Source: Bacteroidaceae bacterium (GTDB taxonomy: Bacteria; Bacteroidota; Bacteroidia; Bacteroidales; Bacteroidaceae). Taken from it: DNA of 39,855 nt. The translations under genes were made by a program, and so were the position numbers. The notes under the pieces are model-generated. The model was not told the origin of the DNA. It did not search any database and was given only the letters and a program-made list of their open reading frames with translations. Position 1 is the first letter of the stretch. Each line of letters starts with the position of its first letter. Where the stretch lies: contig JAGBYI010000213.1 in NCBI GenBank assembly GCA_017628845.1, positions 1 through 39,855 of the forward strand, read 5' to 3'. Of the stretch, positions 1,310-33,760 are shown piece by piece.

Positions 1310-1313
1310 ACCG

Positions 1314-1375
1314 CTGTTGCCCTATCAACAGTGTTCTGTTGTCGAGACAACAGTGCCTTGTTGTCGGGACAACAA
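1314..1375. repeat. Tandem array of three 18-bp palindromes at 22-bp pitch
   Basis: Units begin at 1314, 1336 and 1358, exactly 22 bases apart, with 4-base spacers. Unit 2 is CTGTTGTC-GA-GACAACAG and unit 3 is TTGTTGTC-GG-GACAACAA, both perfect in their arms. The outer pair changes from C/G to T/A while staying complementary. Unit 1 keeps only CTGTTG/CAACAG. The array lies within 70 bases of the cysK stop. A sister array lies at 22392-22475. Confidence 0.8.
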
Positions 1376-1465
1376 AATTAAATGCTCGGGGAGAGCGACA
1401 GGAAGATTACGGGTGATAATGAAAAGAAAATACGTTGACAAGGATGCTTTGCACGAATAAATCCC

Positions 1466-1473
1466 TATCTTTG
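1466..1473 (+). promoter_or_regulatory. Candidate -7 box (TATCTTTG) upstream of structured RNA copy 1
   Basis: TATCTTTG fits TAnnTTTG. A TTTG lies at 1448-1451, only 14 bases upstream, so the -33 element is not ideal. A start near 1480 would give a transcript of about 260 bases ending at the U-tract at 1737-1743. A hairpin (GCGTAT/ATACGC, 1536-1553) lies in its 5' part. Confidence 0.4.
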
Positions 1474-1573
1474 TAGCGTTGAAAAGAATTAACGAATCAT
1501 TAACCACATAAAAACATCATTGCCTATGAAGCATAGCGTATAGTAAGATACGCACATTTAGACATATTGGAAA

Positions 1574-1743
1574 AGCGTTTTAGTCTTATTCATCCTATCT
1601 GAAAGTTTGGCGACTCAAAGGATACTAACATGAATGATACTGAGATGCTCATGCTGGTTAGGCGTGGGCTTTTGGTTATTCTGTTAGTAGGTTACGCCAA
1701 ACACCTCAGATAGGGAATACACTAAAGGTTCCGCGCTTTTTTT
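1574..1743 (+). ncRNA. Structured RNA copy 1: chain of interlocked helices with terminal U-tract
   Basis: Complementary segments in order: S1a 1574-1592, S2a 1594-1602 + 1605-1612 + 1623-1630, S1b 1631-1649, S3a 1662-1668, S2b 1682-1689 + 1695-1702 + 1706-1714, S3b 1730-1736, then seven T. S1 pairs 18 of 19 positions, five of them G-U. S2 is three perfect blocks (CCTATCTGA/TCAGATAGG, GTTTGGCG/CGCCAAAC, TACTAACA/TGTTAGTA). S3 is GCGTGGG with TCCGCGC. S1 crosses S2 and S2 crosses S3, so either a pseudoknot chain or alternative folds. The same order recurs at 33157-33320. The G-U pairs point to RNA rather than DNA function. It could be a free small RNA or a 5' leader controlling the secreted protein at 1842. 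I cannot name the class. Confidence 0.65.
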
Positions 1744-1841
1744 GTGCGTATTTCCAATCTAATTACAAGGAACAACGGAGTAACCCGAAAAGCCGAGAAA
1801 AAGAGTAGGGACAATCTATTGTAATAACCATATATAGTAAT

Positions 1842-2393
1842 ATGAAAAAAATATTGATGTTTGCCGTTGCCATCCTTTCAATTTCGATGTCTGTTTGTGC
1901 TCAAAGTGTTCAAGAACCTGATTTCGAGTTTGAACCATTTGTTGCCAATCTTCAGGATTCCACGTTAGGAGATCCTTTACCATGTGAAAATGCGTATATA
2001 AAGGCCAAGGCAGGCGCAAGTATGTATCTTGTTGGTATTGGTAAGGTGAAGAGTTACTATTATGTTGATGGTGTGTCCAGTTCTCTTGTTTTAGACAAGA
2101 AGTCATGTCTGGTTATCAATTTGGGCGGTCAGTCTCCTTTGCAAACTATATCAATAAACAAGTTTGAGATATTGAAAAAGAAGCGCCGTTTCCAAAATGG
2201 CGAAGTGGGATCCTTCACCGGTGCTTCTGTCAATAACGATGAGGCAGCACAGAGTTTCCGTTACAAGAAATATGGCAATAGCAGCGTGCTTATCCCCTTG
2301 TCTAATTTGGAATCAGGTGAATATTGCTTGAGCATTACCAATTCTATGACTAATTCCAAGTCGGCCAAAGTTTATACTTTCAGCATAAAATAG
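1842..2393 (+). CDS. Small secreted protein of unknown function
   Basis: 183 residues. The first 20 form a signal peptide (MKKILMFAVAILSISMSVCA, then Q), so export across the inner membrane is expected. The mature part is beta-rich, with a GIGKVKSYYYVDG segment, a basic KKKRR stretch and a C-terminal end YTFSIK. From memory it resembles a set of short Bacteroidales secreted proteins with no known role; I cannot verify that here. The gene begins about 100 bases after the U-tract of structured RNA copy 1 and ends in a strong terminator. Base composition is more AT-rich than in neighbouring core genes. Confidence 0.75.
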   Translation: MKKILMFAVAILSISMSVCAQSVQEPDFEFEPFVANLQDSTLGDPLPCENAYIKAKAGASMYLVGIGKVKSYYYVDGVSSSLVLDKKSCLVINLGGQSPLQTISINKFEILKKKRRFQNGEVGSFTGASVNNDEAAQSFRYKKYGNSSVLIPLSNLESGEYCLSITNSMTNSKSAKVYTFSIK

Positions 2394-32517: not shown

Positions 32518-33096
32518 TTACAAGTCATTCAATGTATTTTCATTTTCTTCTCGTTCATTGATTGTATCTCCGTATTTATCTGTATACAGTAATGTTAGTC
32601 TTTTATTTAAAATTACAAGTCTTATTTCGCCATCTTTTACATCAAATATGGAATAATAATAGCATTTGCTTTTAGTTGTTGCTTGCAATTCGTATCCATC
32701 TCCTTCGTAGTATGGTTCAATAAATTCCTCTGTTGTTCTAGGTGATACTTGATACTTCTCCTTAAGCAATTTCTTAAATTCTAAGTAATCAGATTTCAGT
32801 GAATACCAACTCGTAGATTCGGTAAAGAATACAGCAATACTATAAACGATGTTACTTTTAGGAGTTGCTCTAATTGCTATTTCGCAGTTTAAATTAGCGA
32901 ACGAACCATCCATCAATGTAAAATCGGGACTTTGTGAGTTTACTTTGTATCCTGCAGTTTTTAATTGTGAGACAACGCTTTGCATGGTGCCAGTAATGGG
33001 AATATTTTTAAATTTTAGGTGTGAGCTTTGCTCTTGAGCCAATAGGTTGAATGTTACAATGGCTGACATAAAAAGGAATAGAAGTAGTTTTTTCAT
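32518..33096 (-). CDS. Small secreted protein of unknown function, downstream of structured RNA copy 2
   Basis: 192 residues. Signal peptide MKKLLLFLFMSAIVTFNLLA followed by Q. HLKFKNIPITGTMQSVVSQL and a repeated Tyr/Lys pattern (KSKCYYYSIFDVKDGEIRLVI) resemble a widespread Bacteroidales secreted family I cannot name. It begins about 60 bases after the U-tract of RNA copy 2, parallel to the arrangement at 1574-2393. AT-rich. Confidence 0.7.
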   Translation of the reverse strand: MKKLLLFLFMSAIVTFNLLAQEQSSHLKFKNIPITGTMQSVVSQLKTAGYKVNSQSPDFTLMDGSFANLNCEIAIRATPKSNIVYSIAVFFTESTSWYSLKSDYLEFKKLLKEKYQVSPRTTEEFIEPYYEGDGYELQATTKSKCYYYSIFDVKDGEIRLVILNKRLTLLYTDKYGDTINEREENENTLNDL

Positions 33097-33156
33097 AACA
33101 GAACTTTTTTATAGTTAGTGCAATATTGCCGTTCCTTTGTGCCCAACACTAATCTA

Positions 33157-33320
33157 TAAAAAGAAAAGCGTGGGCTGCTTTTATACGATCTAAAGGTACT
33201 GCCATACCCACACTACATATAAGCACAACCCACGCTATCGCGCAGGCGTTTTGAGTGCCTATTGTCCTTGTAGTGTTAGAAATTGGCAGTTTCTTAGATC
33301 AAGTGACAATAGCAAAACGC
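33157..33320 (-). ncRNA. Structured RNA copy 2: chain of interlocked helices with terminal U-tract
   Basis: Read leftward: S1a GCGTTTTGCTATTGTC (33320-33305), S2a GATCTAA + CTGCCA + ACACTACA (33300-33294, 33289-33284, 33276-33269), S1b GACAATAG + CAAAACGC (33266-33259, 33253-33246), S3a GCGTGGG (33235-33229), S2b TGTAGTGT + TGGCAG + TTAGATC (33217-33210, 33204-33199, 33193-33187), S3b CCCACGC (33174-33168), then TTTTCTTTTT. Every helix of copy 1 has its counterpart in the same order with similar linkers (10-15 bases), but the S1 and S2 sequences differ almost throughout. A perfect promoter lies 40 bases upstream. Start near 33358 is preceded by hairpin AATAGGG/CCCTATT. Confidence 0.68.
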
Positions 33321-33365
33321 TATTTTTCCGATAAGATGCAAATAGGGGAGTACCCTATTGCAGTG

Positions 33366-33396
33366 CAAATGTAGTAAAAATATAAGATATAGCAAA
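33366..33396 (-). promoter_or_regulatory. Promoter of structured RNA copy 2
   Basis: On the minus strand TTTG (33396-33393), exactly 19 bases, TACATTTG (33373-33366). A full consensus match that gives independent support for transcription through the RNA element. Confidence 0.75.
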
Positions 33397-33760
33397 TATT
33401 TCCTTCTACAAATCATTAAGGATATTCCGTAAATGGATTGCTTTGCTTTATCCGTAATTTCCATTATCTTGCTAATACCCCAACAGTATTTACTCTTCTT
33501 TATAATGTATGAGGTTAGAGTGCATTGTCACTATTCGTTCAATTTGGCCTAACGGAAAATAGTATTGTCTGTATTTATTTGTCAATTTGGCATGACTATG
33601 AAAAGAAGTGTTCCTGCGACATCCTATAATTGGTAGGTTTCTATAGGTGATTGGTAGGCAGAGTAGGGGAGACGGGGCAAAATTGCCACTTCCTTACTAC
33701 CTGTGCCTCTCTTTGCCCCTGTTCATTCTATTTCGTTCATTATCCCTAACAAAGTAAAAT

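Follow-up and report, generated by a model that had tools for sequence, protein, structure and literature searches.

In a trp-type attenuator, four leader regions pair as 1:2, 2:3, and 3:4, and some riboswitches have kissing-loop aptamers. The DUF805b RNA (RF02914), whose source is reportedly a 2017 motif paper, is a hairpin motif of 35 positions, and Bacteroid-trp (RF01692), Flavo-1 (RF01705), and Bacteroidales-1 (RF01693) are RNA motifs from the same phylum as the element described here. Bacteroid-trp is listed as cis-regulatory in PMC2864571. For F. psychrophilum, PMC9723704 describes 64 5' regions as structured, some of them conserved and outside Rfam, and PMC8040213 describes the palindromic terminator-like candidates HMP2_4205, HMP2_1065, and HMP2_1032 of Bacteroidetes, predicted terminators of 80 to 132 bp. 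The latter are shorter than our element; either set may include fragments of the element family.

The DNA analyzed here (the window) is a 39,855-nucleotide contig of a draft Bacteroidaceae genome (2.67 Mb in 223 contigs, 84.6% complete). It is well supported that its positions 1574-1743 (+) encode a structured RNA whose core lies outside Rfam 15. No Rfam 15 family matched the core in the whole window at gathering score, in window positions 1400-1900 and 33060-33500 to an E value of 1, or in 60 related loci (40 at gathering score and 20 to an E value of 1). The only Rfam matches in the window and related loci were DUF805b, tRNAs, and one chance miRNA match (E 0.73). An earlier, sequence-only reading had recognized no Rfam class in the layout, which holds for the core, and the database check that it proposed returned DUF805b alone, after the core; the window match (1775-1811) covers none of the 170-nt core. 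Bacteroid-trp, Flavo-1, and Bacteroidales-1 had no match in the window or the 60 loci. Flavo-1, which we had considered in view of PMC9723704, was set aside when 20 loci searched to an E value of 1 gave no match. No published description of the family was found in the main texts of the open-licence PMC literature.

Layout of the element in the window

The features of the locus and of its second copy are as follows.

1448-1473 (+): promoter-like boxes, TTTG at 1448-1451 and TATCTTTG at 1466-1473, from sequence; a box also lies upstream in relatives
1526-1543 (+): mini-ORF MKHSV* after GCCT, from sequence; a short ORF recurs in relatives
1536-1553 (+): small hairpin GCGTAT/ATACGC, read in the sequence
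1549-1555 with 1744-1750 (+): S0, TACGCAC, which can pair with GTGCGTA; from own-versus-swapped pairing
1574-1593 (+): strand a (S1a), by covariation
1594-1629 (+): S2a, with P2a at 1594-1602, kissing-loop strand P2b at 1605-1612, and P2c at 1623-1629, by covariation
1630-1649 (+): strand b (S1b), partner of a or c, by covariation
1647-1669 (+): hairpin H, GCTCATGC/GCGTGGGC, incompatible with outer S3, by covariation
1662-1681 (+): strand c (S3a), partner of b/H or d, by covariation
1683-1714 (+): S2b, with P2c' at 1683-1689, P2b' at 1695-1702 inside a GGT..ACC hairpin, and P2a' at 1706-1714, by covariation
1715-1743 (+): strand d (S3b) at 1715-1736 and U-tract at 1737-1743; U-rich tail conserved
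1727-1773 (+): S4, GGTTCC at 1727-1732, which can pair with GGAAC at 1769-1773, past the U-tract; from own-versus-swapped pairing
1775-1811 (+): DUF805b RNA (RF02914), 3' neighbor of the element, 41.9 bits against a gathering score of 35.6
1842-2393 (+): downstream gene, 183 aa, signal-peptide-like start, without Pfam match
32518-33096 (-): gene downstream of copy 2, 192 aa, signal-peptide-like start, without Pfam match
33161-33325 (-): copy 2 of the element, model R2, E 8.5e-11 in the own-genome search

The six segments proposed in the sequence-only reading are present at 1574-1743 (+) in the order S1a-S2a-S1b-S3a-S2b-S3b, and S3b does run into a U-tract of seven T residues. S1 likewise stands, in a register that pairs 19 of 20 positions with four G-U pairs rather than 18 of 19 with five. 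Two of the three perfect S2 helices, given as 9, 8, and 8 pairs, were recovered at those lengths (P2a and P2b), and the last (P2c) has 7 pairs here. S3 comprises 20 pairs with small bulges. A 186-nt stretch of copy 1 folded with a z score of -7.7 relative to 200 dinucleotide shuffles; the minimum-energy fold of copy 1 alone is a single long nested hairpin, not S1 plus S3.

The Bacteroidetes promoter consensus is TAnnTTTG, and 64 of 93 relatives have this box no more than 120 nt upstream, where single-base shuffling predicts 6.5. Short palindromes (TGTTGTCGAGACAACA and TTGTTGTCGGGACAACAA) occur at window positions 1313-1378, between a PALP gene and the promoter, and similar-looking repeats occupy the equivalent place in locus L010.

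Copies of the element and its distribution

The 183-aa gene behind copy 1 has relatives at seven loci; its named relatives are from Bacteroidaceae, Prevotellaceae, and other Bacteroidales records. Two of the seven loci (L010 and L012) carry the element by BLAST, and we read a third (L013) as a divergent version of the layout with a weak score (E 0.11 with model R1 and 0.0023 with model R2). The upstream DNA of L011 was too short to judge, and the element was not found at L014 to L016. In the four close copies (window, L002, L010, and L012), standard pairs fill 97.6% of 250 pair cells, and 11 pairs show changes on both sides; slid controls were 36 to 44% paired. Conservation among them extends from a TTGCCTATG box upstream of the core as far as a downstream stretch resembling DUF805b; of the four, the window's stretch alone reaches the DUF805b gathering score.

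Covariance models were built from these four sequences (R1, covering S1 and S3) and from 100 sequences (R2). Within the window's own genome, R2 gave six matches at E ≤ 1e-4, copy 2 included, i.e., at least six copies. BLAST with copy 1 as the query joined it to a single copy, L002, at 80% identity, and BLAST in the same genome joined copy 2 to none. Copy 2, which the sequence-only reading had placed at 33157-33320, proved to be a true relative but on the minus strand: the R2 match at 33161-33325 (-) lies upstream of the minus-strand gene at 32518-33096. Its strand is undecidable by folding alone (z of -4.5 for minus and -4.4 for plus), and the layout is identical when read on either strand because the segment order is symmetrical.

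The covariance-model search of Bacteroidales genomes suggested in that reading did find relatives. R1 matched in 163 of 399 genomes of the same family (E ≤ 0.001), and R2 matched in 144 of 393 genomes of the order and 48 of 395 of the phylum (E ≤ 1e-4); the samples overlap slightly, and the 48 phylum matches were distributed as own, 1; family, 2; order, 1; class, 40; and other classes, 4. Because no more than seven candidates per genome are scored in searches of this size, they give lower bounds on copy number. Thirteen genomes searched more fully, 12 of them chosen for an earlier match, held 1 to 13 copies each. In a small specificity control (150 kb of E. coli), the sole match had an E of 0.1. 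Some elements lie on the same strand 1 to 2 kb apart, each perhaps before its own gene (G474:C66, 1250-1417 and 2375-2542; G511:C288, 433-594 and 2353-2517).

S1, S2, and S3 are conserved by compensatory change

To assess pairing without an alignment, we compared the pairing energy of each element's own segment pair with that of partners swapped in from other elements. After exclusion of rows shorter than 150 nt and of four that were weak or antisense, removal of redundancy left 93 of 153 elements, and segments were cut by column from the R1 and R2 alignments. Own partners beat swapped partners at frequencies of 0.847 for a:b (S1) and 0.889 for c:d (S3). The P2 domain gave the strongest pairing signal (0.982 for P2a, 0.924 for P2b, and 0.981 for P2c), and the controls a:c and b:d gave 0.531 and 0.473. 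The a:d pairing scored 0.536, and an earlier run on 100 elements agreed (a:d, 0.510). We therefore rejected the nested long hairpin predicted for copy 1 as a conserved state, given that its outer stem is a:d.

Counts of double changes were taken from alignment A6, whose 103 rows include some antisense or partial ones and which was fitted to S1 and S3 but not to S2. For S2, 77% of cells were paired, compared with 33 to 46% after sliding, and 500 cells showed double changes, compared with 184 in shuffles. S2 pairs with at least one double change numbered 22, which is no more than the shuffles gave. For S1 plus S3, the helices to which the alignment was fitted, there were 641 double-change cells versus 215. 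Thus, across the four close copies, the 93 relatives, and A6, each of S1, S2, and S3 is conserved by compensatory change, as the proposal of a structured RNA had it, and uncompensated breakage of S1 or S2 pairs, which would have spoken against that proposal, did not appear for the core.

In 88 rows, S1 plus S3 contained 439 G-U cells and 61 A-C cells, an asymmetry indicating that it is this strand, as RNA, that pairs. S2 had no G-U excess (90 G-U versus 81 A-C in A6). The cells of b:c plus H, a pairing described below, numbered 330 G-U and 68 A-C in A6. G-U pairs may perhaps be favored only in strands that serve two partners.

The S2 domain contains two putative kissing hairpins

As we read it, S2 is made up of P2a (~8 bp), P2c (~7 bp), and a pair of small hairpins, K1 and K2, joined by loop-loop pairing (P2b). 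K2 is flanked by GG(T/G/C)..(A/G)CC in 93 of 93 relatives, and the kissing-loop sequences vary among subtypes. Kissing would hold K1 beside K2 and thereby P2a beside P2c, such that their outer ends meet and S1 and S3 could form there. From this modeled geometry, we hypothesize that the side-by-side arrangement is what lets S1, S2, and S3 coexist; it is the sole way that we see, because S2a takes up the S1 loop and leaves almost no linker.

Three loci (L168, L174, and L177) have a second hairpin before a SusC-like gene, and its loop, GTCGCCAAAC, is the exact complement, maybe by chance, of GTTTGGCGAC, the kissing-loop strand of the window's element type. In the subtype of L067, L070, and L112, the 5' kissing-loop strand is TCGCCAA; since CGCCAA also occurs in the 3' kissing-loop strand of the window subtype (1695-1702), loops of different subtypes might pair in trans.

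Strand c has two mutually exclusive partners

Strand b also pairs with strand c. Own partners beat swapped ones at 0.701 over b:c and at 0.761 over its inner part in the 93 relatives, and A6, with its antisense and partial rows, showed 133 double-change cells versus 76, making b:c the weakest covariation signal. The tip of b:c is hairpin H (family form, GCTCACGC/GCGTGGGC), for which own beat swapped at 0.720. Strand c serves both H and outer S3, and the two cannot form at once. At six of seven c positions, the H and S3 pairs are both possible in 87 to 90 of 90 rows, and at the seventh in 74 of 90. Strand c is something other than GCGYGG in 11 of 91 rows. One of these is an antisense match; in the other 10, all 7 H pairs and no fewer than 6 of the 7 S3 pairs are retained. 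Covariation of c with two mutually exclusive partners is the trace that a switch would leave.

These results bear on the chain of pseudoknots put forward in the sequence-only reading: its S1, S2, and S3 pairings are conserved, but they may not all exist at once, since b:c is conserved as well, as is H, which excludes outer S3. At least part of the layout therefore represents alternative states. In folding models of the stage before d is made, S2 plus b:c exceeded S1 alone in stability in all 93 relatives. At full length, S2 plus b:c led by a mean of 5.7 kcal/mol, and a:b plus c:d was the better combination in only 20 of 93; such energies omit pseudoknots and so do not settle the final state.

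Pairings past the U-tract and an upstream mini-ORF

A U-rich tail follows the core in 89 of 93 relatives, a raw count. Two further pairings, each in part of the family only, reach beyond it. In S4, GTNYC before the U-tract faces GRNAC after it (own beats swapped at 0.620; control, 0.492), and in S0, TACGCAC before the core faces GTGCGTA after it (0.606; control, 0.511). Given that S4 and S0 reach past the U-tract, read-through transcripts appear to matter, and some function would need read-through. In the window, DUF805b starts 32 nt past the U-tract; among 20 close relatives, 3 have it behind the element at gathering score.

Before the core, 54 of 93 elements have a GCCTATG-like box. In all 54, the ATG of the box is followed by a stop within six codons (M*, MKH*, MKHSV*, etc.), compared with 142 of 426 other ATGs in the same stretches. 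It lies 28 to 48 nt before the core in 32 of 33 elements; the 33rd is without the box. The box as patterned is absent from 39 of 93 elements, including copy 2 and elements from other families within the class, and a few of these (L046, L101, and L106) show a variant. With 39 of 93 lacking the box, the mini-ORF is at most a clade-specific input rather than part of the core mechanism, and leader-peptide control as a general mechanism was rejected on this ground.

The element mostly precedes genes for predicted exported proteins

We next considered 165 elements (not dereplicated), 158 of which had enough downstream sequence. In 150 of the 158, the ORF that comes first downstream shares the element's strand; it starts within 200 nt in 133 of these 150 (median over the 150, 67 nt). 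By a simple rule of our own, 109 of the 150 ORFs have a signal-peptide-like start. The same rule selected 21 of 75 control genes (the window contributing 8 of 34 and six other loci 13 of 41), a conservative control because it includes a few genes that themselves follow elements (e.g., those at window positions 1842 and 32518). An earlier control, in which 10 of 110 upstream ORFs were selected, is weak because many such ORFs are possibly spurious or truncated.

A Pfam search covered 113 of 146 distinct downstream proteins. The 25 of 68 families that were listed included BspA-type repeats, TonB plug, CarboxypepD_reg, dockerin, and BACON, together with DNA methylases, GmrSD, and helicases. The 25 of 119 PADLOC models that were listed included methyltransferases of types I, II, and IIG and a protein resembling DrmD of DISARM; most models had a single protein. 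By sequence, some downstream genes thus resemble restriction or defense genes.

Individual loci differ in arrangement. In several genomes taken for sphingobacteria-like (L168 to L183), the element lies ~220 to 580 nt before SusC-like genes, whose starts resemble TonB plug or CarboxypepD_reg domains, often with a small divergent gene ~300 nt upstream that by eye resembles an XRE-type regulator. In L043, the element is followed by a short Cys-rich ORF and then by a radical-SAM-like protein, which by eye looks like a RiPP locus.

Possible mechanisms

The element has conserved pairings, an alternative pairing, a position before genes, and a U-tract. It is very probably a conserved cis leader RNA, and on balance we read it, from sequence comparisons, as a probable transcription-attenuation switch in a 5' leader. 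Strands a, b, c, and d and the U-tract are arranged like regions 1 to 4 of a classical attenuator. The terminating form would consist of a:b plus c:d-U7, and the read-through form would consist of b:c with H at its tip. S2a and S2b, which lie between a and b and between c and d, would form P2a, P2c, and the two loop-paired hairpins (P2b). Since the S2 domain is contiguous with b:c, it may stabilize the read-through form, or it may join the strand ends for a:b plus c:d; the choice between these roles would depend on the signal. Termination, the direction of control, and the signal itself are what we infer. Several observations count against attenuation: the c:d terminator would carry a loop of ~30 nt, a:b plus c:d leads in few full-length models, S4 and S0 reach past the U-tract, b:c covaries least of the pairings and was counted on A6, S2 has no G-U excess and no more double-changed pairs than shuffles, and the best fold of copy 1 also pairs a with d, a pairing unsupported in relatives.

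An unlikely alternative, though the best of those considered, is a leader in which the P2/kissing-hairpin domain senses a ligand or protein and control acts on translation or mRNA stability instead of termination. It would account for the strength of the P2 pairing signal, for the proximity of the downstream start codon, and for S4, S0, and, in some members, DUF805b lying past the U-tract. However, a pure translation device would need neither the U-rich tail (89/93) nor exclusive partners for c, and the kissing-loop sequences differ among subtypes.

We consider it still less probable that the element is a free-standing, trans-acting small RNA with its own promoter and an end at the U-tract, the gene behind it being incidental. 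The upstream promoter-like box (64/93), the U-rich tail, and the several paralogues in many genomes fit such an RNA; the same-strand ORF behind 150 of 158 elements, with a strong bias to exported products, and the pairings and occasional DUF805b past the U-tract do not.

Control by ribosomes that start and stop on the upstream ORF of 1 to 6 codons and so decide the fold is very unlikely. The early stop in 54 of 54 boxes (142 of 426 for other ATGs) speaks for it and the missing box in 39 of 93 elements, copy 2 among them, against it.

We give scarcely any credence to a DNA element, i.e., a site of recombination or transposition with many inverted repeats. In its favor, the inverted repeats are nested, genomes hold several copies, restriction genes sometimes lie alongside, and S2 alone lacks a G-U excess. 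Nevertheless, a DNA site or mobile element was rejected on the basis of the S1-plus-S3 G-U asymmetry, the fixed orientation to genes, and database searches: a 296-base query matched nothing in phages or plasmids, and one exact pattern, drawn from a common subtype and not fitted by the copy in the window, had no match in viral contigs. Own-genome BLAST, which joins one copy (80%) to copy 1 and none to copy 2, also argues against it. An integron cassette site, considered since some copies lie 1 to 2 kb apart, was set aside when attC core motifs were not seen by eye.

If the attenuation reading is extended to the phylum, a tentative and rather doubtful step, the element would be one RNA device (1 to 13 copies per genome in those looked at most closely) exerting a common on/off control of Bacteroidota surface proteins, TonB-type receptors, and anti-phage systems. 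It would do so through a fold with P2a and P2c between two four-way junctions, kissing hairpins, and exchange of c between partners, and the shared signal would then concern the cell surface and phage defense alike. More broadly, this is a large RNA family across a major bacterial phylum, outside Rfam 15 in the searches made. Since it lies mostly before genes for exported proteins and sometimes before anti-phage-like ones, it may govern bacterial encounters with hosts, food, and phages. Its interlocked covarying helices and their exclusive alternative would offer a direct test case for the folding of knotted RNA during transcription.

Comparison with known systems

Like riboswitches with kissing-loop aptamers, the element has a junction and two loop-pairing hairpins before a possible expression platform; unlike them, it has no known ligand, its downstream genes are diverse, and its loop sequences vary by subtype. 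The trp-type attenuator differs from it in other respects. The element has no run of control codons, its ORF box is missing from 39 of 93 members, and a leader peptide with regulatory codons overlapping region 1 is not seen, the ORFs having 1 to 6 codons. It also carries the additional, mutually paired segments S2a and S2b between regions 1 and 2 and between regions 3 and 4, and it precedes unrelated exported and defense-like genes. What it shares with the trp-type attenuator is a short upstream ORF in 54 of 93 members, a U-tract after the fourth strand, and four strands with exclusive pairings (1:2, 2:3, and 3:4), of which 2:3 is the weakest in a comparison that uses A6, fitted to 1:2 and 3:4.
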